From Amycolatopsis albispora (lineage in GTDB: Bacteria > Actinomycetota > Actinomycetes > Mycobacteriales > Pseudonocardiaceae): a stretch of 64,000 bases of DNA. The stretch lies in the NCBI RefSeq assembly GCF_003312875.1, contig NZ_CP015163.1, positions 186,001 through 250,000 on the forward strand. Reading direction: 5' to 3'. Both the position numbers and the translations under genes were made by a program. Shown here piece by piece: positions 13,405 through 59,797 of this stretch; position 1 is the first letter of the stretch; every line of letters begins with the position of its first letter. The notes under the pieces are model-generated. The model saw nothing but the letters and a program-made list of their open reading frames with translations. It did not search any database and was not told where the DNA came from.

Positions 13405-13421
13405 AGAACTCGTTGCCCTCC
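13379..13421 (-). pseudogene. 3' end of the VOC-family gene, left of the prophage
   Basis: Read on the minus strand the bases give E-G-N-E-F-C-V-L-A-G-R-Y-P-stop, the usual end of a VOC (glyoxalase/bleomycin-resistance fold) protein. The missing N-terminal part is at 59444-59797 and ends at ...LTDPEG, so joining the two at the shared CCCTCCG restores DPEGNEFCVL. This pins the bacterial attachment site. Confidence 0.92.
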
Positions 13422-13441
13422 GCAATACCCCACATGTGACA
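13416..13441. other. attL: core CCCTCCG and right arm of attP
   Basis: Core CCCTCCG at 13416-13422 is shared with attR (59448-59454). The phage-side arm CACATGTGACA at 13431-13441 is the inverted partner of TGTCACATGTG at attR. Bases left of the core belong to the host VOC gene. This is the layout of a large serine integrase product site. Confidence 0.9.
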
Positions 13442-14462: not shown

Positions 14463-14574
14463 GTGGAGATCAGACACGGTCTTTACGGCCCTTGACCAGG
14501 GCCAATGACGCGGTCGGCGGATCTTGGGCCGCCGCGCGGATCACCCATGCTTGCTAACCCAACAGGAGTTCGTC

Positions 14575-14886
14575 GTGGCTACATACGTGCGAGCGTCAGA
14601 CGCTAGCGCACTTCGGGAGCTTGTCGAAGCGACCGGTCGGCATGCGGACGTGGCGTTCCGTGCGGGCATCTCGCCGGTTCGGCTGAGCCAGGTGTTGAAC
14701 GGGGCATCGCCGGTGATTCCGCTCCAGCAGGCGGCAAAGCTGGAAGACGTTCTCGGCGTGCCGCACGGCACCTTCTTCGTGGTCGACGACCCGGCCGCGA
14801 GCCCGGAGCTGATCGGCCCCTACCTCGCGCGCGGCGACGCCACCGACGAAGACGAAGAGGACGACGGCGCGTCGGGTGCGGCATGA
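14575..14886 (+). CDS. Cro-like HTH protein, first gene of the early operon
   Basis: A 103-residue protein from GTG 14575 with CAGGAG 6 nt upstream. An XRE-type helix-turn-helix fills residues 10-65 (VAFRAGISPVRLSQVLNGAS), followed by a very acidic tail (DEDEEDDG). It is divergent from the likely repressor and starts the rightward early operon, overlapping the next gene by 4 nt. Confidence 0.7.
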   Translation: MATYVRASDASALRELVEATGRHADVAFRAGISPVRLSQVLNGASPVIPLQQAAKLEDVLGVPHGTFFVVDDPAASPELIGPYLARGDATDEDEEDDGASGAA

Positions 14887-39721: not shown

Positions 39722-42700
39722 TTGGCGTACTCGGCCGGTGCCGCCTATGTCCAGCTGCTGCCAACGCTGCGCGGGTTCGGCAGCTCGGCTGCGTCGCAGA
39801 TCAACTCCCAGCTCGCCAACGTCGGCGGCCCGGCCGGTCAACGTGTCGGCCGGAACCTCGGCGAGGGAGCAGACACCGGGCTTTCCGCCACCCTGACCCG
39901 CCTGCGCGGGAGGTTCGAGGAGGTGAGCCGCTCCGGCTCGGACTCCATGTCCCGGCTGGCGCGCGGCACCGCTCCCGTGCTCGACCAGCTCGCCAAGGTG
40001 AGCCCCGTCCTCGGCCGCGTGCGAGACGGCTTCCAGTCCGGGCAGGTCGCCGCGTCGGCGTTCTCCGGCGCGGCTGGCTCGGTCGGCGGACATCTCCGGA
40101 CGATCACGGACGCGACCGGACGCGTGGGTGCGGGCTTCGGCTCGATGGCCACGCTCAGCGAGTCCGCGCTGAGCCGGACCGGCTCGGCGATCAACCGCGG
40201 CCTGCTCGCACCCGTCCGGGGCGCGAGCACGATCCTCGCGGGCTACGGCCTCACGGCCGGGACCGTGTTCACCGGAGCTGGCGTCGCCGCGGTTGCGATG
40301 GGCGTGAAGTTCGCGGCCAGCCAGGAGCAGGCCGAGATGGCGTTCACGACCATGCTCGGCAGCGCGCAGAAGGCGCAGGCATTCGTCGCGCAGCTCCAGG
40401 ACTTCGCGGCGAAGACGCCGTTCGACCTGCCGAGCGTCACGACCGGAGCGCAGCGGTTGATGGCCTTCGGGTTTGCGGCCAAGGACGTGCTGCCGACCCT
40501 GACCGCGATCGGCGACGCCGTAGCGGGGATGGGCGGTTCTGCCGAGCAGATCAACCAAGTCGTGCTCGCCGTCGGCCAGATGTCGGCCAAGGGCAAGGTC
40601 CAGGGCGACGAGATCTTGCAGCTCACCGAGGCCGGTATCCCTGCCCTGCGCATCCTGGCCAACCAGTTCGGGGTCACGACGGCCGCGATGCAGGACATGA
40701 TCTCCAAGGGGCTCGTCAGCAGCGCCGACGCGATCCCGAAGCTGATGTCCGGCATCGAGCAGGGCACGCGCGGCGCGGCCGGGGAGACTCAGGCGTTCGC
40801 CGGGATGATGGCCAACCAGGCCACGACCCTCAACGGCATCTGGTCGAACTTCACCGACAACCTCAACAAGGCGCTCGGCCAGCTCGTCACGCCAGCGCTG
40901 CCCGCGATCAAGAGCGGCCTCGCCGTCCTGTCCGACGGCCTGGGCGCGCTGCCCGCGCTCATCGCGCGGTTCCAGGAAGCGGCCCGCCCCGTGGGAGCGG
41001 TCGCCGGAGCGGCCTTCCGCGACCTCGGCGCGTTCATCACCGGCTCTGTCGTTCCCGCGCTGCGCAACCTGTGGACAGCGGTCCAGCCGGTCGCGGTCAT
41101 CGTCGGCGGAGCCCTGCTGGCTGCGCTCCGCGCCACCGGACAGCTGCTGCGGGAGGTCGTCGGCCCGGCGCTCGTCGTGGTCAGCGGTTGGCTGCGTCCG
41201 CTGATGCCGGTCATCGTCGGCATCGCAGCGGCCTTCCTCGCCTGGTACGCGGTGGCCGCTGCGGTCAGCGCGGTGACCAAGGCCGTCGAGCTGGTGCGCG
41301 GGGCCATCCTCGCCGTCCGGATCGCCTGGACGTTGCTGAGCCTCGCCTTCACCGCCTCACCGATCGGCTTGATCATCGCCCTGGTCGCGGGCCTGGTCGC
41401 CGGGATCATCTACGCCTGGAACAACTTCGAGGGCTTCCGCAACGTCGTGCTGACGGTCTGGGAGGCGATCCAGACCGCTGCGCTGTGGGCCTGGAACAAC
41501 GCGCTCAAGCCCGCGTTCGACGGCATCGTAACGGCCGCGCAGGCGGTCGGCTCGGCGGCCGTGTGGCTCTGGCAGAACGCGATCGTCCCGGCCTTCAACG
41601 CGATCGTCTCGGCCGTGCAGGCGGTCGGTGCCGCCGCGAACTGGTTGTGGCAGAACGTCTTCTCGCCGGTCTTCAATTTCATCAGCGTCGTGGTCCAGCA
41701 CGTCGCCGCGATCCTCTTCACCGTCCTCATCGGACCGGCGATCCTCCTGTTCCGCGCGCTCGCGGCAGCCGTGATGTGGCTGTGGACCAACGCCGTGCAG
41801 CCGGTCTTCACGTTCATCGGCCAGATCGTCGCCTGGGCCTGGAACACGATCATCAAGCCCTACCTCGACGCCTGGGTCTGGGTCCTGACACAGGTCGGGA
41901 ACGGCTTTGTCTGGCTGTGGAACAACGCGATCAAGCCCGCCTGGGACGGCCTGGTCGCCGGGATCTCGTGGGCCTGGACCAACCTGCTCAAGCCGACCTT
42001 CGACGGTTTCGTCTGGGTCATCGGCCAGATCGGCGACTTCTTCGTGTGGCTGTGGAACGTCGCCGTCCGCCCGGCCTGGGACGGCCTGGTCGCTGGTGTC
42101 TCGTGGGCGTGGGCGAACGTGCTCCGGCCTGCCCTCGACGGCCTCGGCATCGCCGTTCGAGCGGTCGGCGACTTCTTCGGCTGGCTCTGGAATTCCGCGG
42201 TGAAGCCTGCATGGAACGCGCTGACCGGAGCGCTGCAATGGGCCTGGGACAACGTGATCCGCCCGGTGTTCGACTTCTTCAAGGGCGCGGTCGACAAGAT
42301 CGGCGACGCCTTCACGTCCATGAAGGACATCGTCAAGGGCGTCTTCGACTCCGTCGTGGAGTTCGTGAAGAAGCCCATCCAGGTCGTCATCGACGTGGTG
42401 TGGAACAACGGCCTCCGCCAGGTCTACAACACGGCCGCCGACCTGCTGCCCGGAGTCGAGCCGCTGCCGGAGCTGCGGTTGGCCGGCGGGGGCGTGGTCC
42501 CCGGTTACGCACCCGGGCGCGACGTCGTGCCTGCCGTGCTCTCGCCCGGCGAAGCCGTTCTCGTCCCCGAGCTGGTGCGCGCGATCGGTGCCCGGAACAT
42601 CCTCGCGGCCAACGCGAAGGCCATGCAGGGCCGGGCGTTCGCCCGAGGTGGCATCGTCGCGCGCTTCGCCGACGGCGGGATCGTCGGCGCGGCACCCGAC

Positions 42701-52166: not shown

Positions 52167-52234
52167 ACACCGTGCGGAGAGTAAGCAACCGGTTCGCGAC
52201 GGAAAGTTTCCACCGGTACCGAACGCAACAGACG

Positions 52235-52273
52235 ACAAAGGCCCCGTCGCTCACCGAGCGACGGGGCCTTTGT
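52235..52273. terminator. Bidirectional terminator
   Basis: Perfect 17-bp stem ACAAAGGCCCCGTCGCT (52235-52251) with its complement (52257-52273), loop CACCG. It follows the leftward DUF397 gene, which ends at 52285, and precedes the lsr2-group promoter, insulating the cargo region from the phage genes. Confidence 0.85.
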
Positions 52274-52284
52274 TGCGTCAGGCG

Positions 52285-52665
52285 CTACGCGGCGAATGCT
52301 GCCGCGTCGAACTCGTAATGCCTTACGCCGAGCCAGAACTTGTCGGCCTCAGACTCAGTGAAGACCAGCTCGACGTCGCTCGCGACGGCCGCACGGAACA
52401 CGTGCAGACCGTCATGGCGGCGAACGACCTCCAGGCAGGTACCGGCGGCCGAACCTGTCGCGCGGTAGGTCTCCAGGAAGGCGTCCCAATCGGCCGCGTC
52501 GAACACGAGCCGGAGATCGTCGGCGGAACCGAACGGCACCGTGTCGTTGCGCAGCTCGACCCGCGCTCCGCGGCGGGCCACGCGCACGCAGTCCTTGTCC
52601 GGCTGGCTGGCGGACGCCTTGCGGAAGTCGTCTTCGCGGAAGGGTGACGGGGTGGCGGTGCTCAT
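52285..52665 (-). CDS. DUF397-domain protein with two tandem DUF397 units
   Basis: A 126-residue protein from ATG 52665. Two DUF397-like units: KDCVRVARRGARVELRNDTV...DWDAFL, then GTCLEVVRRHDGLHVFRAAV...DKFWLG. DUF397 proteins pair with XRE-DUF5753 regulators throughout actinomycetes and act as small partners or antagonists. The XRE gene lies just upstream (36 nt). Most DUF397 proteins have a single unit of about 60 residues, so the tandem form is less usual. Confidence 0.8.
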   Translation of the reverse strand: MSTATPSPFREDDFRKASASQPDKDCVRVARRGARVELRNDTVPFGSADDLRLVFDAADWDAFLETYRATGSAAGTCLEVVRRHDGLHVFRAAVASDVELVFTESEADKFWLGVRHYEFDAAAFAA

Positions 52666-52700
52666 CAGCGATCTCTCCTGGTGGGGTGTCTCTGGAAAGC

Positions 52701-53582
52701 TCAGGCGGCGGCGCGGTAGTCGTCCGCGACGCCTCGAAGGAAGTCGCGGGTCTCGTCGAACTTCAGGGCGGCATTGCTCAGTCGCGCCCACGCGGTCTCG
52801 TACGCCCGCAGCGCCTTGCGGTCGTCGAGATACCTGATCTCGGCTTCGCCCTCGACGTAGGCGAGTTCGAGTGGGCCGGCCGCTCCTGGGGACGGCACGC
52901 GAATCAGCGTGAACGGAGATGCGATCGGCGACCTTCGGCCAGCGGGCTGGTCGAAAGGCATCACCTGGATGTGGACGTTCGGGCGGTTGGACAACTCGAT
53001 CATGTGCTCCACCTGTTCGAGCATCACGCCAGCGTCGCCCCACACCCGCCTCACGCACGACTCCGAAAGGACGAACTGGAGGAGCGGCGGCTCGTCCTTG
53101 GCAAGGATGTCCTGGCGAGCGAGTCGTGCCGCGATCCGGTCGTCGAGCGTGACGCCGTTGATTTCAGGCATGTCGGCATGCAGTGCGCGGACGTACGACT
53201 CGCACTGGAGAAGTCCCGGCGCAACCTCGACCTCTACGCCACGCAGCTGGTCGGCGTGCTTGTCGAGATCGACGCGGAGGCGGATGTCTTCGGAGTACGC
53301 CCGGTTGTGTCCGGTCGTCCAGAAGCCGCGCTTGTGGTTGTCACGTCGCAGCTCGCGTAGAGCCTCCTGATAGCCCTCGTCGGTGAATCCGAGCTTCGTC
53401 GCGAGCAGCACGAGGTCGCCGGGCGCAATGTTGCTGCCCCCGCTGATCAAGCTGGCCATGCGCGGCTGGCTGGTTTCGATGAGCTTCGCGGCCTCCGCCT
53501 GTGAAGCTCCTGCCGTCTCGATCATGTGCGCGATCTCGCGCCCGAGCAGCAGCTTCTTGGCAGTGCGGACGGTAGCGGGCAT
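52701..53582 (-). CDS. XRE-family regulator with DUF5753 domain
   Basis: A 293-residue protein from ATG 53582. The helix-turn-helix spans residues 13-65 (AHMIETAGASQAEAAKLIET, SQPRMASLISG); the C-terminal two-thirds is DUF5753 (EVAPGLLQCESYVRALHA, HMIELSNRPNVHIQVMPFDQ, PLELAYVEGEAEIRYLDD). It forms a pair with the DUF397 gene and is divergent from the RiPP operon at 53788, which it likely controls, with the palindrome at 53691 as operator. Confidence 0.88.
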   Translation of the reverse strand: MPATVRTAKKLLLGREIAHMIETAGASQAEAAKLIETSQPRMASLISGGSNIAPGDLVLLATKLGFTDEGYQEALRELRRDNHKRGFWTTGHNRAYSEDIRLRVDLDKHADQLRGVEVEVAPGLLQCESYVRALHADMPEINGVTLDDRIAARLARQDILAKDEPPLLQFVLSESCVRRVWGDAGVMLEQVEHMIELSNRPNVHIQVMPFDQPAGRRSPIASPFTLIRVPSPGAAGPLELAYVEGEAEIRYLDDRKALRAYETAWARLSNAALKFDETRDFLRGVADDYRAAA

Positions 53583-53690
53583 CTACAGGACCTCTCCGTG
53601 AGCTGAGTTCGTGGCGTTTCTGGATCGGTCGATACCTCCTCTCGCCACAGAGGGTATCGCCCGACGCCACTCGAATGGACGGGTGCTCAA

Positions 53691-53707
53691 GGCTTGATAA
53701 TCAAGCC
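53691..53707. promoter_or_regulatory. Palindromic operator candidate for the XRE regulator
   Basis: GGCTTGAT-A-ATCAAGCC, perfect 8-bp arms, in the 205-bp divergent region between the XRE gene and the RiPP operon. GGTATC half-sites occur at 53629, 53652 and 53712 in the same gap. Confidence 0.55.
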
Positions 53708-53787
53708 GAGCGGTATCAGACTGCATATCTACAAGATCGGAACCATCTAGCTGGAATCAGTCACACTACCGCATGCGAGAGGCAGTT

Positions 53788-54045
53788 ATGTCCGCACCTA
53801 CGACAGCAGTTACACCCGCTCTGACCAGGCGAGAGGTCAAATGTCGCGATGCGGCACGGCGTCCGAGGCACGTCAGCACCTACGTCGGTGAGGGCGTCGT
53901 CGTACTGCTCGCCCCGGCGGCCGAGGCTGCCCAGCTCGACCCGGACAGTGCACGCGAACTCGCGACGAACCTCCGCGAGCACGCCGACGCCGTCGAGGCC
54001 CGCCAGCGAACCTCGGCCGGAGCCGCGCAGCGCACGCGCTTCTAA
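53788..54045 (+). CDS. First gene of the RiPP operon, unknown function
   Basis: An 85-residue protein from ATG 53788 with GAGAGG 5 nt upstream (ATG 53773 possible). Basic first half, then VVVLLAPAAEAAQLDPDSAR and a helical C-terminus (ELATNLREHADAVEARQR). Small proteins of this shape often accompany XRE/DUF397 pairs. The following 192 bp (54046-54237) hold no convincing gene. Confidence 0.55.
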   Translation: MSAPTTAVTPALTRREVKCRDAARRPRHVSTYVGEGVVVLLAPAAEAAQLDPDSARELATNLREHADAVEARQRTSAGAAQRTRF

Positions 54046-54237
54046 GACCTGGCCCGCTTCCTCACCCCCAGAGAGGGACCGGGCTTCCGCAGGCGGGCGG
54101 CGGGACGTCGAGCAAGGCGGCGCGGCCCGGACGCCTGGCTCCGCCCCGCCGCCCCCTACCCCGAGAACGCGGCGGGCCTGACGTGGACCCCGACCTCCGT
54201 CAGGTCCGCCGCACACCACCTCATCAGGACGGTTCAC

Positions 54238-54528
54238 ATGGTTCAGCCCTCGAAGAACGACGAAAACCCCCATAGCGAGGCGCTGCGCCGAGCCGTTGCC
54301 CACGGGTTCGAGCAAGTTCCCATGCCGCTCTCGACGATGGCGGTGTACGAACGGTGGGATCGTCCGGCAGGAATCGTCGAGGTCATCAGCGTGGTCAGCG
54401 ATGACGAGGCGAAGGCGGCTCGGTGGCTGATCGCTGACTACGACTCCGGCGAGCACGGTCCGCGGTGGTCCCGCCAAGGATCACCCGAAGACGTGATCAA
54501 TGCCTTATTCGAGACGGCCGAACCATGA
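54238..54528 (+). CDS. RiPP-operon protein, unknown function
   Basis: A 96-residue protein from ATG 54238. The segment IVEVISVVSDDEAKAARWLI and closing SPEDVINALFETAEP suggest a small alpha/beta fold. Its stop overlaps the next start (ATGA). Confidence 0.6.
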   Translation: MVQPSKNDENPHSEALRRAVAHGFEQVPMPLSTMAVYERWDRPAGIVEVISVVSDDEAKAARWLIADYDSGEHGPRWSRQGSPEDVINALFETAEP

Positions 54529-54941
54529 ACGACGAGTTCATGGCTTCGGAGACCGCTTGGCCCGGTCTCTGGAGCAGCAATCTCTTGCACAAGGTGGTGA
54601 AGGGCAACGAGAGCCGCCTGTCCGCCCAAGGGCGTTCGTTCGGACTCTCCGAATGCGGCGTGGCCTGCGTGCCGTTCCCGACGAAGCGGCCCGGCACGGC
54701 GTACTGCCCGACCTGCTTTCCGAAGTGGCCACGAGAGGTCGAACCCGAGTTTGACGAGGTGCTGCCTCCGCTGCCGAAGAGGATTCCGCAGCAGGTACCG
54801 CCTCGGCGGCCGTTCCGGAGCGACCCGGACAGCCCCTGGTTCAACTCGTTTGAGCAAGCAGACGAGGTTTCCCCAATGAGACGGCGCGAAGTAGTCGCGT
54901 CGGTCGCGATAGTGCCTGAGCACCTGTTCAGGCGTGGATAA
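54525..54941 (+). CDS. Cys-containing RiPP-operon protein, probably zinc-binding
   Basis: A 138-residue protein from ATG 54525. The segment LSECGVACVPFPTKRPGTAY, CPTCFPKWP provides two Cys pairs (CGVAC and CPTC). A HKVV/R-Ls-GRS opening precedes it. The C-terminal part is Pro-rich. It ends 12 nt before the precursor gene. Possibly a regulator or partner of the pathway. Confidence 0.6.
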   Translation: MNDEFMASETAWPGLWSSNLLHKVVKGNESRLSAQGRSFGLSECGVACVPFPTKRPGTAYCPTCFPKWPREVEPEFDEVLPPLPKRIPQQVPPRRPFRSDPDSPWFNSFEQADEVSPMRRREVVASVAIVPEHLFRRG

Positions 54942-54953
54942 GGGAGGTACACG

Positions 54954-55295
54954 ATGACCGCAGTACTGGAGCCCGGTTTCGCCGACGACCCGTTGGCGAC
55001 CCACAGCGCCCAGTTCCCCCTCGGTCAGCTCCACGAGCGCACTGCCACGGACATCCGTTCCGAACCCGGCGTGCGTCCGTGGGGCCTTCGCTGGATGGAG
55101 GAGGGACGGGTGGCCGGCGTGGAGACCCCCCGGGGAACCTACGACCCCGTCAGGCAGGTGTCGGTCGACGCCGAGGGGCGGCCGATGAGCCCCTTCGCCG
55201 CCACAGCGAACTCGGTGTCGAACAACGACGGCGACGAGGGGCCGAGCGAGGACTGGACCTACGACTTCACGCCAGACAACCCGCACCAGGTCTGA
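54954..55295 (+). CDS. tgmA: Graspetide-type RiPP precursor peptide
   Basis: A 113-residue peptide from ATG 54954 with AGGGAGG upstream. The leader carries the two blocks typical of ATP-grasp-modified RiPP precursors: RPWGLRWM (residues 41-48) and TYDPVRQVSVDAEGRPM (62-78). The core (79-113) is rich in acceptors (D92, D94, E95, E99, D100, D104, D108) and donors (S87, S89, S98, T102, T106) and has a D92-G93 step suited to aspartimide formation. Its stop overlaps the ATP-grasp start (TGATG). Confidence 0.85.
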   Translation: MTAVLEPGFADDPLATHSAQFPLGQLHERTATDIRSEPGVRPWGLRWMEEGRVAGVETPRGTYDPVRQVSVDAEGRPMSPFAATANSVSNNDGDEGPSEDWTYDFTPDNPHQV

Positions 55296-56245
55296 TGTCC
55301 GTCCTCATTCTGACCGGGGAACACGACCCGTCCGCTGATCTCATGGTCTCGGCGCTTGAGAAGCGCGAGGCGATCGTCCATCGGGTCGATACGTCCTGGT
55401 TCCCGGGCCAGCTCAGCGTCACCGCTGAGCTGGCCTCGGGCCGCTGGTGCGGCACCTTGCGCACACCGCACCGGACGATCGACCTCGACACCATCACCGC
55501 CGTCTGGTACCGCGAGCCGAAGGCATTCGACTTCCCGGAGATGACGCCCACGGAGCGGATGCACGCGAACATCGAGGCCAAGTACGGCCTCGGCGGCATC
55601 CTGACGACGCTCCCGGTCCTGTGGGTGAACCACCCCGCCCGGGTAGCTGACGCGGCGTACAAGCCGGTCCAGCTCGTCGCTGCCCACCGGGCAGGGCTGA
55701 CCGTGCCGGACACCCTCCTCACGAACGAGGCGGACGCCGCCCGCGAATTCGGCCGCCGGGGACGCACCGTTACCAAGATGCTCGGCGGCGTCTCGCTCGT
55801 GGAAGAAGGTACCCGCCGGTACGCCCGCACCAGGCTGCTCGATCCATCCGACTTCGAGGACATGCGCGGCCTGGAACGGACTATGCACCAGTTCCAGCGG
55901 TGGGCGTCGAAGGCGAAGGAGGTCCGCGTAGTCGCGATTGGCGACCAACTCAACGCCATCGAGATTCACGCCCACAGCGCGAAGGCGTACGTGGACTACC
56001 GATCCGACTACCGGAGCCTGCGGTACCAGCTCACCGACCTACCGGAATCCGTCGAGGTCGGCGTGCGGCAGTTGATGAAGCACCTCGGCCTCCTGTACGG
56101 CGCGATCGACTTCGTGGTCGGTCCCACGAACGAGTGGACGTTCCTGGAGATCAACCCATCTGGCCAGTACGGCTGGTTGGAAAACCATACTGACGCTCCG
56201 TTGACCGACCAGCTCGCCGATCTCCTAGCAGGAGGAACCGCATGA
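55295..56245 (+). CDS. tgmB: ATP-grasp RiPP maturase
   Basis: A 316-residue ATP-grasp ligase. N-terminal domain VLILTGEHDPSADLMVSALE; central ITAVWYREPKAFDFP and LWVNHPARVADAAYKPVQLV; nucleotide/metal-binding C-terminal block LLYGAIDFVVGPTNEWTFLE followed by INPSGQYGWLE. This matches TgmB/graspetide ligases that form ester or amide cross-links between Ser/Thr/Lys and Asp/Glu side chains of the precursor. Coupled to both neighbours. Confidence 0.9.
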   Translation: MSVLILTGEHDPSADLMVSALEKREAIVHRVDTSWFPGQLSVTAELASGRWCGTLRTPHRTIDLDTITAVWYREPKAFDFPEMTPTERMHANIEAKYGLGGILTTLPVLWVNHPARVADAAYKPVQLVAAHRAGLTVPDTLLTNEADAAREFGRRGRTVTKMLGGVSLVEEGTRRYARTRLLDPSDFEDMRGLERTMHQFQRWASKAKEVRVVAIGDQLNAIEIHAHSAKAYVDYRSDYRSLRYQLTDLPESVEVGVRQLMKHLGLLYGAIDFVVGPTNEWTFLEINPSGQYGWLENHTDAPLTDQLADLLAGGTA

Positions 56246-57369
56246 CCGACTGGGAGCCACGCGCCATCGCGCTCGCCGACGAGCTGGCCGCCGCCGGGAA
56301 ACTGACTGACGAGCGCTGGCGCAAGGCGCTCACGAGCGTTCCGAGGCATGTCCTGGTGCCCGAGTACTTTCAGCCGGACCAGGAGGGAGGATGGCGTCGG
56401 GTCAGCACCTCTGCTGGCGAGGGTCTGGATGCCGTCTACTCGAACAAGTCCTTGATCACCGACGTGGACGAGCGGGGTCATGCCGTTTCGTCGTCGAGCA
56501 TGCCGGGCCTGATGGTGCGGATGCTGGAGTTGCTGGAGATCGGGCGGTTCCACCGCGTACTCGAAATCGGTACCGGCACCGGCTACAACGCCGCCTTGAT
56601 CACCGAGTACTTGGGCAACGGGAACAACCTGTTCAGCGTCGACATCGACTACATCGACACAGCGCAGGAACGGCTCGCGAGTCTCGGCTATCACCCGACG
56701 CTGCGGAAGGCCGACGGCGTTGACGGGTTGCCGGACTGGGCTCCGTACGACCGCATCCTCGCCACCGTGGCCGTACCGCGGATTCCGGCAGCCTGGGTCG
56801 CTCAGCTGAACGATGGCGGGCGCATCCTGGCGGACATCAAGGTCGCGGTCTCGGCCGGGAATCTGGTGTTGTTGCGCAAGAACGGCGACACCCTGTCCGG
56901 CCGCTTCGATGGCAGGTACGCGGCGTTCATGGCGATGAGGCACCCGGACCGGGCGCAGCAGCGGCCGAGCCAGCCGGCCACCTCCGGGAACGAAGAACAC
57001 TCGACGACCCACTATGAGCCGATGGCGTGGGAGAACACGGTTGTCTGGTTCCTCGCGGCGCTCCAGTTCCCGGAGGGCACCACCTATGGCATGCAGCTTG
57101 ACAGCGATCACCAGCCGTCGAAGGCCACCTTCTCCAGCGGGGACGGCTCGTGGGCTCGCGTCGACATCAAGGCCGATGCCAACGGTGAGCGGCTGGTGGT
57201 CCAGTCCGGTCCGACAAGCTTGTGGGACGTGATCTCCGACGGCTACAGGCAGTGGGAGGAGGCTGGCCGTCCGACCTGGGACCGCTTCTACCTCACGGTG
57301 AAGCCGGACGGCGAACAGGTCGTATGGCTGGACGATCCGGAGGGGGAGTTCTCCTGGCTGTTGCCTTAA
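56242..57369 (+). CDS. PIMT-family methyltransferase of the RiPP pathway
   Basis: A 375-residue protein from ATG 56242 with AGGAGG upstream. The protein-L-isoaspartate methyltransferase domain covers residues 10-215: SSSSMPGLMVRMLELLE (PIMT substrate loop) and VLEIGTGTGYNAALI (SAM site, residues 107-120). A C-terminal domain of about 150 residues is absent from housekeeping PIMTs (about 220 residues). In known graspetides with such enzymes the PIMT methylates an Asp of the cross-linked peptide, which then closes to an aspartimide. Confidence 0.88.
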   Translation: MTDWEPRAIALADELAAAGKLTDERWRKALTSVPRHVLVPEYFQPDQEGGWRRVSTSAGEGLDAVYSNKSLITDVDERGHAVSSSSMPGLMVRMLELLEIGRFHRVLEIGTGTGYNAALITEYLGNGNNLFSVDIDYIDTAQERLASLGYHPTLRKADGVDGLPDWAPYDRILATVAVPRIPAAWVAQLNDGGRILADIKVAVSAGNLVLLRKNGDTLSGRFDGRYAAFMAMRHPDRAQQRPSQPATSGNEEHSTTHYEPMAWENTVVWFLAALQFPEGTTYGMQLDSDHQPSKATFSSGDGSWARVDIKADANGERLVVQSGPTSLWDVISDGYRQWEEAGRPTWDRFYLTVKPDGEQVVWLDDPEGEFSWLLP

Positions 57370-57433
57370 CCGGGCTTTCTGGAGCGGCCAGCCCCCCGAC
57401 GCTCCCGGTTAGCCCCATGCCAGGATGCAGGAC

Positions 57434-57472
57434 AGGGAGCCCCCGGCGCACGCATCGCGCCGGGGGCTCCCT
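57434..57472. terminator. Terminator of the RiPP operon
   Basis: Perfect 16-bp stem AGGGAGCCCCCGGCGC (57434-57449) with its complement (57457-57472), 7-nt loop, between the convergent PIMT gene and the leftward gene at 57478. Confidence 0.85.
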
Positions 57473-57477
57473 GCTGC

Positions 57478-57690
57478 TCAGACAGTGACGTGACGACCGA
57501 GGATCGCCAGCATCCGTTGCAGGCACTCCAGCAGGTCGCCGAGGTCATCCGCGAGGAAGACGTCAGCGGGGCTGTCCGCCCACACCTTGCTCACGTACTC
57601 GATGTCCCGCTCCAGGCGCTCCGCGTCCTCGGGATGCCCCGAGGTCCGCAGCTCCTCGGCGGACGCCTTCACCTTCTCCTCCAGGGTCAT
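57478..57690 (-). CDS. Small helical protein
   Basis: A 70-residue protein from ATG 57690 with GGAGAGG upstream. Helical, acidic (EEKVKASAEELRTSGHPEDA, then DDLGDLLECLQRMLAILG). Located after the integrase in the leftward direction. Function unknown. Confidence 0.6.
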   Translation of the reverse strand: MTLEEKVKASAEELRTSGHPEDAERLERDIEYVSKVWADSPADVFLADDLGDLLECLQRMLAILGRHVTV

Positions 57691-57768: not shown

Positions 57769-57864
57769 TCATTCAAGTTCCGGCGGCGAGTCCATCGTCA
57801 CCTTTGGGGTGAACGATGTATCTGAGCGCTCGGTGCCACCACCTGTACTGGCGGACCAGCTCAT
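57769..57864 (-). CDS. 31-residue ORF coupled to the integrase gene
   Basis: It starts at ATG 57864, overlapping the integrase stop (ATGA), and ends at TGA 57769. Ser/Thr/Gly-rich peptide without a clear fold. The coupling suggests it is translated; its role is unknown. Confidence 0.4.
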   Translation of the reverse strand: MSWSASTGGGTERSDTSFTPKVTMDSPPELE

Positions 57865-59333
57865 GCTGCGTCCTTCTTCTCGATGTGGATGCGGTCGCGG
57901 TAGTCGCCCTCCAGATGGCGGGGCTTGCGTCCCTTCTTCCCCTTCAAGATCGTCACCGTGCACAGCGCGTCCACGATCGCCCGCCTGCGCTCGATGGGGG
58001 TCAGCTCCGGGTTCATGAAGACTTCGGCCGGGTTCGGTGCGTCCGCGACTCCGCTGAGCACCGAGCTGGACGCCCGGGAAGCGAGGTCGGTGTTGACCTC
58101 GTCCAGCTTGAGGATGATCTTGTTCCGCTGTCGCAGGAAGGCCGCACGCGATAGCTCGCCGTCGCCCAACATGTCCTCCAGCTCCCTGATGCGCGTTCGG
58201 AGCGAGGTCGCCTGAGTTCGGAGGTCCACGGCGTCTCCGTCGGGCACCTCGATCAGGTTCGCTCCGTGCTTGATGAGCCGCGCGCAGACATAGGTGTTCA
58301 CGATGGAGTCGATGGGAGCGGCCCGAACGGCAAGGTGGAGACCATGCTTGCAGCGGTACGCCGCGTGCTTCTCGCCGCCGGAACCCGACGAGGAGATCCC
58401 GGCCGAGCGCATGAGGTCGGAGCACACGTCGCAGCGGTAGAGGTTCGTGCCCAGCCACTTGAGCGACCGGCTACCCCGGTAGCTTGTCCGGTGCTCGTTG
58501 TCGAGCAGGATCGAGCGGACGGCCAGGTACTCGTCGTCGGTGATGATCGACGGCCAGATGGCCTTCACGTTCTCCAGCACGACGCCGCGGTGCTCCATCA
58601 ACCCCGCATTGCGCGGTCGGGTCAGGATGCGCTTGAGCGTGGCCGGGTACCAGCGTGCCGATCCGCGCGGTGTCGGCACGCCCGACGCGGTCCACCGCTG
58701 GCAGATCGCGTACAGGCTCTCGCCGGAGATCACCCGCTGCACGGCATCCTTGATCATCGCCGCCTCGTGCTCGATGACCTTGATGCCGACCTCTTCGCGG
58801 TTGATCACGTTGCCGTAGGCGTCCCGGATCGTCCCCTGGTAACCGAAGGGACGCGCGCCGCCGATCCACTCGCCGCGTTCGAGGGCCTGTAGCTTCTCCC
58901 GGCACACGCGTTCGCTGATGTCCTCGGCTTCGCCTGCGTCGTTGGCAGCCAGGATGCGAGCGATCCGGCGGCCAGCGGCGGTGTTCAGGTCGAAGCTTGG
59001 CGACGCGACGTACCGGAACTCAGTCCCGTAGGTCTCGGCGAGTTCGATCTGACCTTCATGCTCGCGCGGGCGACGAGTCAGCCGGTTCGAGGTGTAGGAG
59101 GTGATCTTCTGAATGCGGCCACGCTTGGCGTCGGCCAGCAGCCGCTTGTAGTCAGGACGTGGCTTCTTCGATCGGGTCGACGCCCCGATGTCGTTGTCCT
59201 TGTAGATGTCGACCACCGTGTCGCCCTCGCTCGCCGCGAGCTTCCGGCAGTCCTGTTCCTGGCGCTCGACGCCCAGCTCGCGACCTTCACGGTCGTCGCT
59301 GATCCGGAGGTAGATCCCAACCAGCTTACCCAC
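57861..59333 (-). CDS. int: Large serine integrase
   Basis: A 490-residue serine recombinase from GTG 59333. Catalytic domain residues 1-150 with nucleophile S12 (YLRISDD) and TSNRLTRRP; recombinase domain near 170-290 (RPFGYQGT, RILTRPRNAGLMEHRG); zinc ribbon near 300-340 (CDVC ... YRCKHG); coiled coil near 390-440 (LRTRIRELEDMLGDGELSRA). It lies at the attR end, as usual, reading away from attR, with immunity operator O4 in its promoter. It integrated the phage into the VOC gene. Confidence 0.95.
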   Translation of the reverse strand: MGKLVGIYLRISDDREGRELGVERQEQDCRKLAASEGDTVVDIYKDNDIGASTRSKKPRPDYKRLLADAKRGRIQKITSYTSNRLTRRPREHEGQIELAETYGTEFRYVASPSFDLNTAAGRRIARILAANDAGEAEDISERVCREKLQALERGEWIGGARPFGYQGTIRDAYGNVINREEVGIKVIEHEAAMIKDAVQRVISGESLYAICQRWTASGVPTPRGSARWYPATLKRILTRPRNAGLMEHRGVVLENVKAIWPSIITDDEYLAVRSILLDNEHRTSYRGSRSLKWLGTNLYRCDVCSDLMRSAGISSSGSGGEKHAAYRCKHGLHLAVRAAPIDSIVNTYVCARLIKHGANLIEVPDGDAVDLRTQATSLRTRIRELEDMLGDGELSRAAFLRQRNKIILKLDEVNTDLASRASSSVLSGVADAPNPAEVFMNPELTPIERRRAIVDALCTVTILKGKKGRKPRHLEGDYRDRIHIEKKDAA

Positions 59334-59429: not shown

Positions 59430-59454
59430 TGTCACATGTGAAGCTATCCCTCCG
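59430..59454. other. attR: left arm of attP and core CCCTCCG
   Basis: Arm TGTCACATGTG at 59430-59440, core CCCTCCG at 59448-59454. Joining to attL gives attP with 11-bp inverted arms spaced 7 and 8 bp from the core. Bases right of the core belong to the host VOC gene. Confidence 0.9.
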
Positions 59455-59797
59455 GGTCGGTGAGGACAACCCAGCTTTCGTCGCCTTGGCCGACGTCGGC
59501 GTAGCGCGCGCCCAGGTCGAGCAGCCGCTGGACCTCTTCGTGCTGCTCGCGGTCGGTGGCGTTGACGTCGATGTGCAGCCGGTTCTTGACGGTCTTGCCC
59601 TCCGGCACGCGCGCGAAGGTCAGCGTCGGCGGCACCGGGCCGGGGCGCTTCCGGCCCTCGGGCACCGCGGGCGAGCCGATGGTGATGAACTCGTCCTGCT
59701 CTTCCTGCACCTCGTAGTCGAGGACCGCGCACCAGAACCGGGCGAGCGCTCGGGGGTCCGCGCAGTCGACGGCTAGCTCGGTGAACTTACTGGCCAC
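59444..59797 (-). pseudogene. VOC-family protein gene, 5' part, truncated by the prophage
   Basis: From ATG 59797: FTELAVDCADPRALARFWCA, VLDYEV, RLHIDVNATDREQHEEVQRL and WVVLTDPEG, then TAG created by phage sequence at attR. VOC domain proteins normally continue with -NEFCVL, which is found at attL. The truncated product lacks the last strand and the metal-ligand Glu region, so it is probably inactive. Original role (small-molecule dioxygenase, glyoxalase or resistance) cannot be told. Confidence 0.9.

Follow-up and report, generated by a model that had tools for sequence, protein, structure and literature searches.

Graspimiditides, the group 13 graspetides, are made from a precursor whose core holds an Asp-Gly pair, by an ATP-grasp enzyme and a homologue of protein-L-isoaspartate methyltransferase (PIMT); fuscimiditide, amycolimiditide, albusimiditide and SsfA(BM) are the characterised examples. 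The accessible part of a 2026 review (PMC13001092) describes them as bearing Thr-Asp esters and a methylated loop Asp followed by Gly, and the accessible part of PMC10787088 describes a C-terminal domain in the PIMT of these systems. Here, we analysed a window of 64,000 nucleotides of Amycolatopsis albispora (contig NZ_CP015163.1, positions 186,001 to 250,000), which carries the same three kinds of gene. Unlike those of the characterised peptides, they are carried by a temperate phage, apparently in an exchangeable slot. With a probability of roughly 60%, we think that the graspimiditide set is lysogeny cargo of a temperate actinophage, lodged in an exchangeable slot between the lysis and Lsr2 genes and the serine integrase, and that its product gives the lysogen an advantage.

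A graspimiditide set between attL and attR

The three biosynthetic genes overlap, by TGATG at 55293-55297 and ATGA at 56242-56245. The first (54954..55295, + strand) encodes a precursor of 113 residues recognised by TIGR04186 (30.0 bits, cut-off 25), with a putative core from T84 to V113; its score against PF14408 (15.6 bits) is under the cut-off of 25, and a PDB search with it gave nothing useful. The second (55295..56245, +) is an ATP-grasp maturase of the TgmB/GRASP_SAV_5884 type (TIGR04187, 352.9 bits, cut-off 350), which matches the solved graspetide-type ATP-grasp ligase PDB 5ig9 (2.5e-39). The third (56242..57369, +) is a PIMT-type O-methyltransferase with a C-terminal extension (PF01135, 3.9e-29; phrog_13505, 5.2e-78). 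Its catalytic part matches the protein-L-isoaspartate methyltransferase 1dl5 in the PDB, and its residues 11-359 align to TIGR04188 (332.5 bits), so that the extension is covered. The set thus unites a TIGR04187-type synthetase, an upstream precursor with an ATP-grasp-target leader and an extended PIMT, as group 13 graspetides do; an imiditide or type I pamtide, made by a PIMT alone, is ruled out by the ATP-grasp gene in the cluster. An earlier reading of this DNA, made from the letters and open reading frames only (hereafter the sequence-only reading), had placed these genes, named their enzyme classes and seen them as coupled, all of which the curated family matches and the overlaps bear out. 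The five genes that it named are confirmed, but it overlooked three small genes on the + strand before the precursor.

The set lies in an intact-looking Amycolatopsis prophage of 46 kb that interrupts a glyoxalase-like host gene and has recognisable genes for the terminase, portal, major head protein, endolysin and serine integrase. A generic direct-repeat search did not reveal the att sites; the edges were obtained by comparison with the element of genome G074 (A. thailandensis JCM 16380). Both sites share the core CCCTCCG, at 13416..13422 (attL) and 59448..59454 (attR), and have on the phage side an inverted arm, CACATGTG, at 13431-13438 and CACATGTG at 59433-59440. The N-terminal part of the host gene is at 59455..59797 (-) and its C-terminal end to the left of attL. 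When the host flanks are joined in silico the glyoxalase-like frame is restored and reads through to LTDPEGNEFCVLAGRYP and its stop. This gene is uninterrupted in the five loci read (L097-L101), and matches to it at E<=1e-40 occur in 8 of the 79 other genomes searched. The large serine integrase (57861..59333, -) matches PF00239, PF07508 and phrog_95 (2.5e-78). Integrase, att sites, structural genes and the restored empty site are those of a temperate prophage, and the cluster is indeed where the sequence-only reading had put it, between attL and attR. No tRNA was found in the window, and G+C sets the prophage apart only slightly.

The prophage of G074 is near-identical to that of the window (99.3% identity along 34.5 kb and 97.7% along 11.5 kb, with 4 differences in the 5,085 bases of 52285-57369) and also sits in the glyoxalase-like gene. 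The alignment of the two overruns both cores slightly (to 13395 and 59578). The right core of G074 reads CCCTCGG, against CCCTCCG in the window, and the actual crossover may therefore lie inside CCCTC. In a 3-kb host control region, the best piece is only 75% identical in G074, and together with the near-identity of the prophages this suggests that the phage moved recently between species.

The core of the precursor is conserved. The alignment covers eight precursors, three from phages (the window, the viral contig UViG 2899332677, hereafter the UViG, and G044) and five from other Pseudonocardiaceae records not known to be phage-borne; loci L090, L092, L094 and L095, with a short or no precursor frame, stand outside it. 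Residues T84, D92, G93, D94, E95, G96, P97, S98, D100, Y103, D104, P107, D108 and P110 are invariant in all eight. The core had been taken as unfamiliar, or unusual, a view that we reject since it includes the shared DGDEGPS. Asp is followed by Gly as in the characterised members (D92-G93, in all eight), at a position that we infer to be the loop. From the chemistry of published graspimiditides, we predict that T84 and S89 provide the esters and that D92 becomes an aspartimide. The ATP-grasp enzyme would join Thr84 and residue 89, hydroxyl residues in the N-terminal half of the core, through side-chain esters to the C-terminal acids, the invariant Asp100, Asp104 and Asp108, giving a stem-loop; the PIMT would then methylate Asp92 of the Asp92-Gly93 pair in the loop, leading to closure to the aspartimide. 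By analogy with known families this chemistry is probable, and the set would be expressed. Position 89, likely that of an inner ester donor, holds Ser in the window precursor and Thr in the seven remaining ones; the four characterised peptides are Thr-Asp cross-linked according to the accessible part of PMC13001092, a comparison by description and not residue by residue.

The slot before the integrase

A terminase large subunit (TerL) of the window kind (E<=1e-150) is held by 37 of the 390 family genomes. We compared the slot in close relatives with TerL 84-95% identical and in the UViG, i.e. in eight distinct prophages of the lineage with G074 counted as a copy of the window. The TerL of G366 is partial (323 of 567 residues matched). 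Gene calls in these relatives come from a custom open reading frame score, and labels of slot genes like zinc-ribbon, APH-like or GntR-like from weak Pfam matches or inspection by eye. The slot follows the lysis genes, as well as an Lsr2-like gene in those prophages where one was found, and precedes the serine integrase. Its content varies: the window and G074 have the graspimiditide set described above, the UViG has another graspimiditide set, G037 and G185 have a short peptide followed by a JmjC_2 protein (PF08007, 8.5e-20 and 5.5e-20), G397 has a DddA-like deaminase with Imm1 (L138:11585-12759; PF14428, 2.4e-16; PF14430, 1.3e-9), G366 a kinase/B12-radical-SAM/AlkZ/MazG set and G235 small genes with no recognised cargo. 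The slot of G372 was left unassigned, no related lysin or integrase being found in 40 kb. On its other side, the slot is bounded by a related integrase in the window, G074, G366 (86%), G397 (66%) and G235 (59%). These comparisons suggest that the slot is exchangeable and that phages of the lineage swap such cargo among themselves.

Sequence divergence points the same way. Between the window and the UViG, identity is 94% for TerL, 84% for the portal and 85% for the capsid, against 60% for the maturase (tgmB) and 45% for the PIMT. For TerL, portal, capsid and one tail gene, synonymous divergence (dS) lies at 0.41-0.51. Four later genes, the lysin among them, reach 0.58-0.69, the three cluster genes 0.89-1.12 and the DUF397 gene 0.55. 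The UViG set is nearer to that of G044, a less related phage (maturase 76%, PIMT 66%), than to that of the window. Between the UViG and G044, the ratio of non-synonymous to synonymous divergence (dN/dS) is 0.29 for the precursor, 0.17 for the maturase and 0.23 for the PIMT at dS about 1, and hence both copies look used.

A second lineage offers a contrast between siblings. Phages G044 (in A. roodepoortensis) and G025 share TerL at 98% and integrase at 91%, with 93.6-96.6% identity in five DNA blocks of more than 1.5 kb and 75-89% in shorter blocks. At the end opposite the integrase gene, G044 carries a graspimiditide set and G025 a JmjC-peptide set, and their regulators differ too. The cassette is not their only difference, for they also diverge in an early-gene patch (proteins 36-57% alike). 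In the circular phage, the cassette end would presumably adjoin the integrase. The graspimiditide set recurs in phages, is exchanged and is under purifying selection.

The JmjC-peptide set is itself RiPP-like (RiPP, ribosomally synthesised and post-translationally modified peptide): a peptide of roughly 50 residues is followed by the gene of a JmjC_2 (PF08007) oxygenase of about 400 residues. It was read at L133:4442-5962 (G037), L134:1945-3393 (G185), L235-L242 and L258-L262. In seven of eight genus loci, the JmjC gene directly follows a peptide that carries GGDGHG..GGDGLNIPE at its end or close to it, the frame being degenerate in the eighth; five more phage-linked loci have the full motif (two) or a shortened one (three). 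Two peptides of the GGDGHG type were scanned and matched no NCBIfam or Pfam model, and we found no description of the set in the open-licence literature or NCBIfam. Among the 37 TerL genomes, 9 of the 13 JmjC rows are within 30 kb of TerL when 0.09 are expected at random, as are 5 of the 23 maturase rows (0.15 expected). The latter count includes both G000, the genome of the window, and G074, copies of one prophage, and leaves out G078, where the nearby terminase is of another kind; contigs were taken as given, so that genes on different contigs count as not near. None of the 37 genomes has both sets near TerL. JmjC proteins of the slot kind are widespread in actinomycetes (846 among 7,996 scored candidates, at E<=0.001), mostly without known context, and the link to phages therefore holds only for genomes selected by TerL.

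Divergent from the set stand an XRE-DUF5753 regulator (52701..53582, -; PF19054, 1.7e-46) and its DUF397 partner (52285..52668, -; PF04149, 1.9e-7). The sequence-only reading took them for the pathway's own regulators. We reject such a specificity, since in the same phage lineage the pair is kept beside the JmjC-peptide cassette of G037 (XRE 83%) and the radical-SAM cassette of G366 (XRE 70%). In fact, window-type XRE and DUF397 genes occur in four of the eight distinct prophages (window, UViG, G037 and G366), with three kinds of cargo. To judge from this distribution, the pair probably belongs to the slot, as a slot regulator, rather than to the RiPP set. A further helix-turn-helix gene near attL (14524-14886, +; PF01381, 23.9 bits, cut-off 23) is a candidate immunity regulator, separate from this pair.

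The module is bordered by two terminator-like hairpins, a feature of the sequence-only reading that holds up: one on the left at 52231..52279 (-; within 52230-52282; -41.6 kcal/mol, z -9.9), the other on the right at 57433..57473 (+; within 57428-57486; -44.4 kcal/mol, z -7.2). Neither is listed by a scan for terminators with T-runs, and none of 200 shuffles was as good for either. Three small genes precede the precursor. A DUF6907-like gene heads the + strand row (53773..54045, +; PF21848, 5.1e-5, 24.2 bits, under the cut-off of 26). The next, with no assigned function (54238..54528, +), overlaps its follower by ATGA and has relatives at 35-36% in the UViG, G185 and G366. The third (54525..54941, +) is Cys-rich, zinc-ribbon-like by eye and without Pfam match; its relatives also precede other cargo, with tblastn pieces in L088, L090, G037 and G366 and a likeness in G025 seen by eye. 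Elsewhere in the prophage, the tape-measure gene has internal direct repeats of 36-135 nucleotides (41390-42282) that look, by eye, rich in Trp codons. A second portal gene (phrog_104) of the same genome, at G000:C1:7816045-7817469, probably marks another prophage or a remnant.

Relatives outside phages and possible roles

The sequence-only reading left it to be seen whether the cluster recurs in other integrated elements, and it does: the graspimiditide set is found in the phage elements of G074, the UViG, G044 and G078, and more distant maturases in those of G228 and G155. In no genome searched was the same cluster at the same locus outside an att pair, although related clusters do occur in genomes with no phrog_9 TerL shown near them. 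A maturase match at E<=0.001 is present in 44 of 80 genus genomes (its own included), many of them weak. We took the context of 20 genus loci and searched two phage markers, phrog_9 and phrog_104, in 32 of the 80 genomes, so some loci counted as non-phage may lie in other mobile elements. A terminase is within about 26 kb of the maturase in G000, G074, G044 and G078, and the other 17 fetched genus loci have neither marker that near. In G058, a phrog_9 terminase lies at about 27 kb from a second maturase row (G058:C1:2347525-2348439; 40% identical), which may belong to one more phage-borne set. The same core type occurs in seven genomes outside the genus, several of which are incomplete; six lack a phrog_9 match, and the seventh, G082, has matches on two contigs, not tied to its maturase contig.

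On the trees, the phage label requires at least three changes for the PIMT and at least two for the maturase. We thus reject a single clade of prophage copies; capture, or else loss, must have happened several times. The PIMT of the window clusters with sequences of Actinophytocola, Tamaricihabitans and Saccharomonospora (support 100/99). Some placements are less certain: the support is 82/34 for the fork at which the maturase of the window meets its nearest neighbours. One PIMT/maturase tree pair left out G012, which is without PIMT; a later tree covers 15 of the 29 earlier loci and 8 of 11 additional ones, leaving aside L095 (maturase in three pieces) and L085 and L091 (repeats of G074 and G044); an early alignment covered six of the relatives then available. 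Searches with the maturase gave two distant matches in phage isolates (31% and 27%), 85 records in plasmids, all under 60%, and one relative in viral contigs, the same with the single protein and with an alignment as query. In viral contigs, the PIMT gave no pattern match and the JmjC protein no confirmed one; yet contig L158, reached through its lysin, encodes a JmjC protein, so single-protein scans of these contigs miss relatives and their negatives mean little.

In the reading that we favour, lysogeny cargo in an exchangeable slot, the modified peptide would benefit the lysogen in competition or exclusion. Such a role fits the other occupants of the slot, among them further peptide-making sets and a deaminase toxin accompanied by Imm1. 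A wider proposal, which we put forward as tentative, is that temperate phages of Pseudonocardiaceae keep an attachment-end slot dedicated to ribosomal-peptide and toxin modules, in which graspimiditide and JmjC-peptide sets are swapped between siblings, so that the modified peptide serving in exclusion or kin-type competition would differ from one lysogen to the next.

Several observations weigh against the cargo reading. For most related clusters no location in a phage is known, and the product is therefore not phage-specific. The contrast in dS is blunter beside the slot (0.82 for Lsr2, 0.79 for g51710 and 1.0 for XRE); divergence rises towards the slot and the contrast alone is thus not decisive. 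The right border of the slot, or the integrase, was not found in the available stretches of the UViG, G037 and G185, nor in G372. The PIMT scores under the curated cut-off of TIGR04188 (380 bits). The neighbour genes scanned include no recognisable transporter, protease or immunity gene, and a scan for sigma-70-like promoters, ill-suited to actinomycetes, found none. Finally, PADLOC finds no defence system in ten proteins scanned, five of them from the window; residues 93-203 of the PIMT match mad2 and the radical-SAM protein of G366 matches PDC-M51A, both only in part.

In a first alternative, the modified peptide would stay in the lysogen and block related phages, the swapping of cassettes being an arms race among such phages. 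The set adjoins the integrase, related phages exchange cassettes, an exporter was not recognised near the set, and anti-phage systems are counted in 227 of 2112 actinobacterial prophages in the accessible part of PMC10023795. Still, PADLOC matches do not extend over most of any protein, homologues not known to be phage-borne are common, and competition among bacteria is suggested by the DddA-like deaminase and Imm1 protein that the slot also takes. We regard this alternative as rather unlikely.

One might also see here an ordinary chromosomal graspimiditide cluster captured by accident and carried as neutral baggage. The same core in Pseudonocardiaceae loci not shown near a phrog_9 TerL, and the three or more changes of label on the PIMT trees, would agree with this. 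But the phage copies are under purifying selection, the sister phage has a different allele in the same slot, the slot repeatedly holds functional-looking cargo, and maturase rows near TerL exceed by far the random expectation given above, even if G000 and G074 are copies. Accidental capture is thus improbable. We give as little credit to a peptide signal that would tune the lysis-lysogeny decision or host development and be read by the XRE-DUF397 pair; the pair is divergent from the set, but it also stands beside the unrelated cargo of G037 and G366, which makes a dedicated receptor for this peptide unlikely. That the enzymes modify a host protein, the 113-residue frame being no precursor, is very improbable: PIMT and ATP-grasp families also include members acting on proteins, but this frame matches a precursor family above cut-off, its stop overlaps the start of the maturase, its core is invariant in eight loci and its dN/dS between the UViG and G044 is well under one.

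Comparison with known systems

Phage-carried biosynthetic clusters in general were reportedly treated by Dragos et al. in 2021. Small putative biosynthetic gene clusters are counted in 13 of 2112 actinobacterial prophages in the accessible part of PMC10023795, which names class I lanthipeptides, in Streptomyces prophages, and a type III polyketide synthase (T3PKS). These are likewise small clusters, RiPP ones included, within prophages; that part of the article does not mention graspetides or the exchange of slots. Links between RiPPs and phages in ocean metagenomes are described in the accessible part of PMC11118758. Judged by titles and abstract openings, the open-licence literature gave us no description of phage-borne graspetides.

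Among known phages, the Austintatiousvirus phages of Streptomyces have a PIMT related to TIGR04188 (337 bits in PapayaSalad, under the cut-off of 380) between lysis and immunity genes; unlike in the window, no ATP-grasp gene is annotated beside it. A Gly/Ser-rich peptide with Asp-Gly directly precedes this PIMT (L073:4768-6107 and L074:3705-5107), of 48 residues in PapayaSalad and with a longer reading in Alderaan, possibly an imiditide-like set. The Saccharomonospora phage PIS 136 (L075:4728-6593) has HTH_31 and DUF397 genes beside a PIMT, as in the window; it differs in that the PIMT is annotated in two pieces, again with no ATP-grasp gene annotated beside it. In the Leptospira phage LalZ_80412 (L076:3889-4963), a distant ATP-grasp maturase-like gene (27%) comes after a frame of 37 residues.

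The XRE-DUF397 pair resembles the SCO1979-type pairs of actinomycetes in domain make-up and order, with 143.5 bits against NF058600 (cut-off 350). Unlike them, it is phage-borne and retained with changing cargo. According to the accessible part of PMC10364602, a type II toxin-antitoxin role was once proposed for XRE-DUF397 pairs, and 14 pairs of S. coelicolor behave otherwise. DUF397 and DUF5753 genes may co-occur with graspetides of groups 11 and 13, as stated in the accessible part of PMC13097080.

Linking aspartimide-bearing RiPPs to a biological function is the bigger challenge in the accessible part of PMC13001092. Sibling phages with different peptide sets at the same end open this question to a comparison of matched lysogens. 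They also add graspetides, and possibly a new class of JmjC-linked peptides, to what temperate phages bring to their hosts. The graspimiditide of the window adds a new member to a known class; the interesting part is its setting, a phage slot that also takes a JmjC-peptide set.

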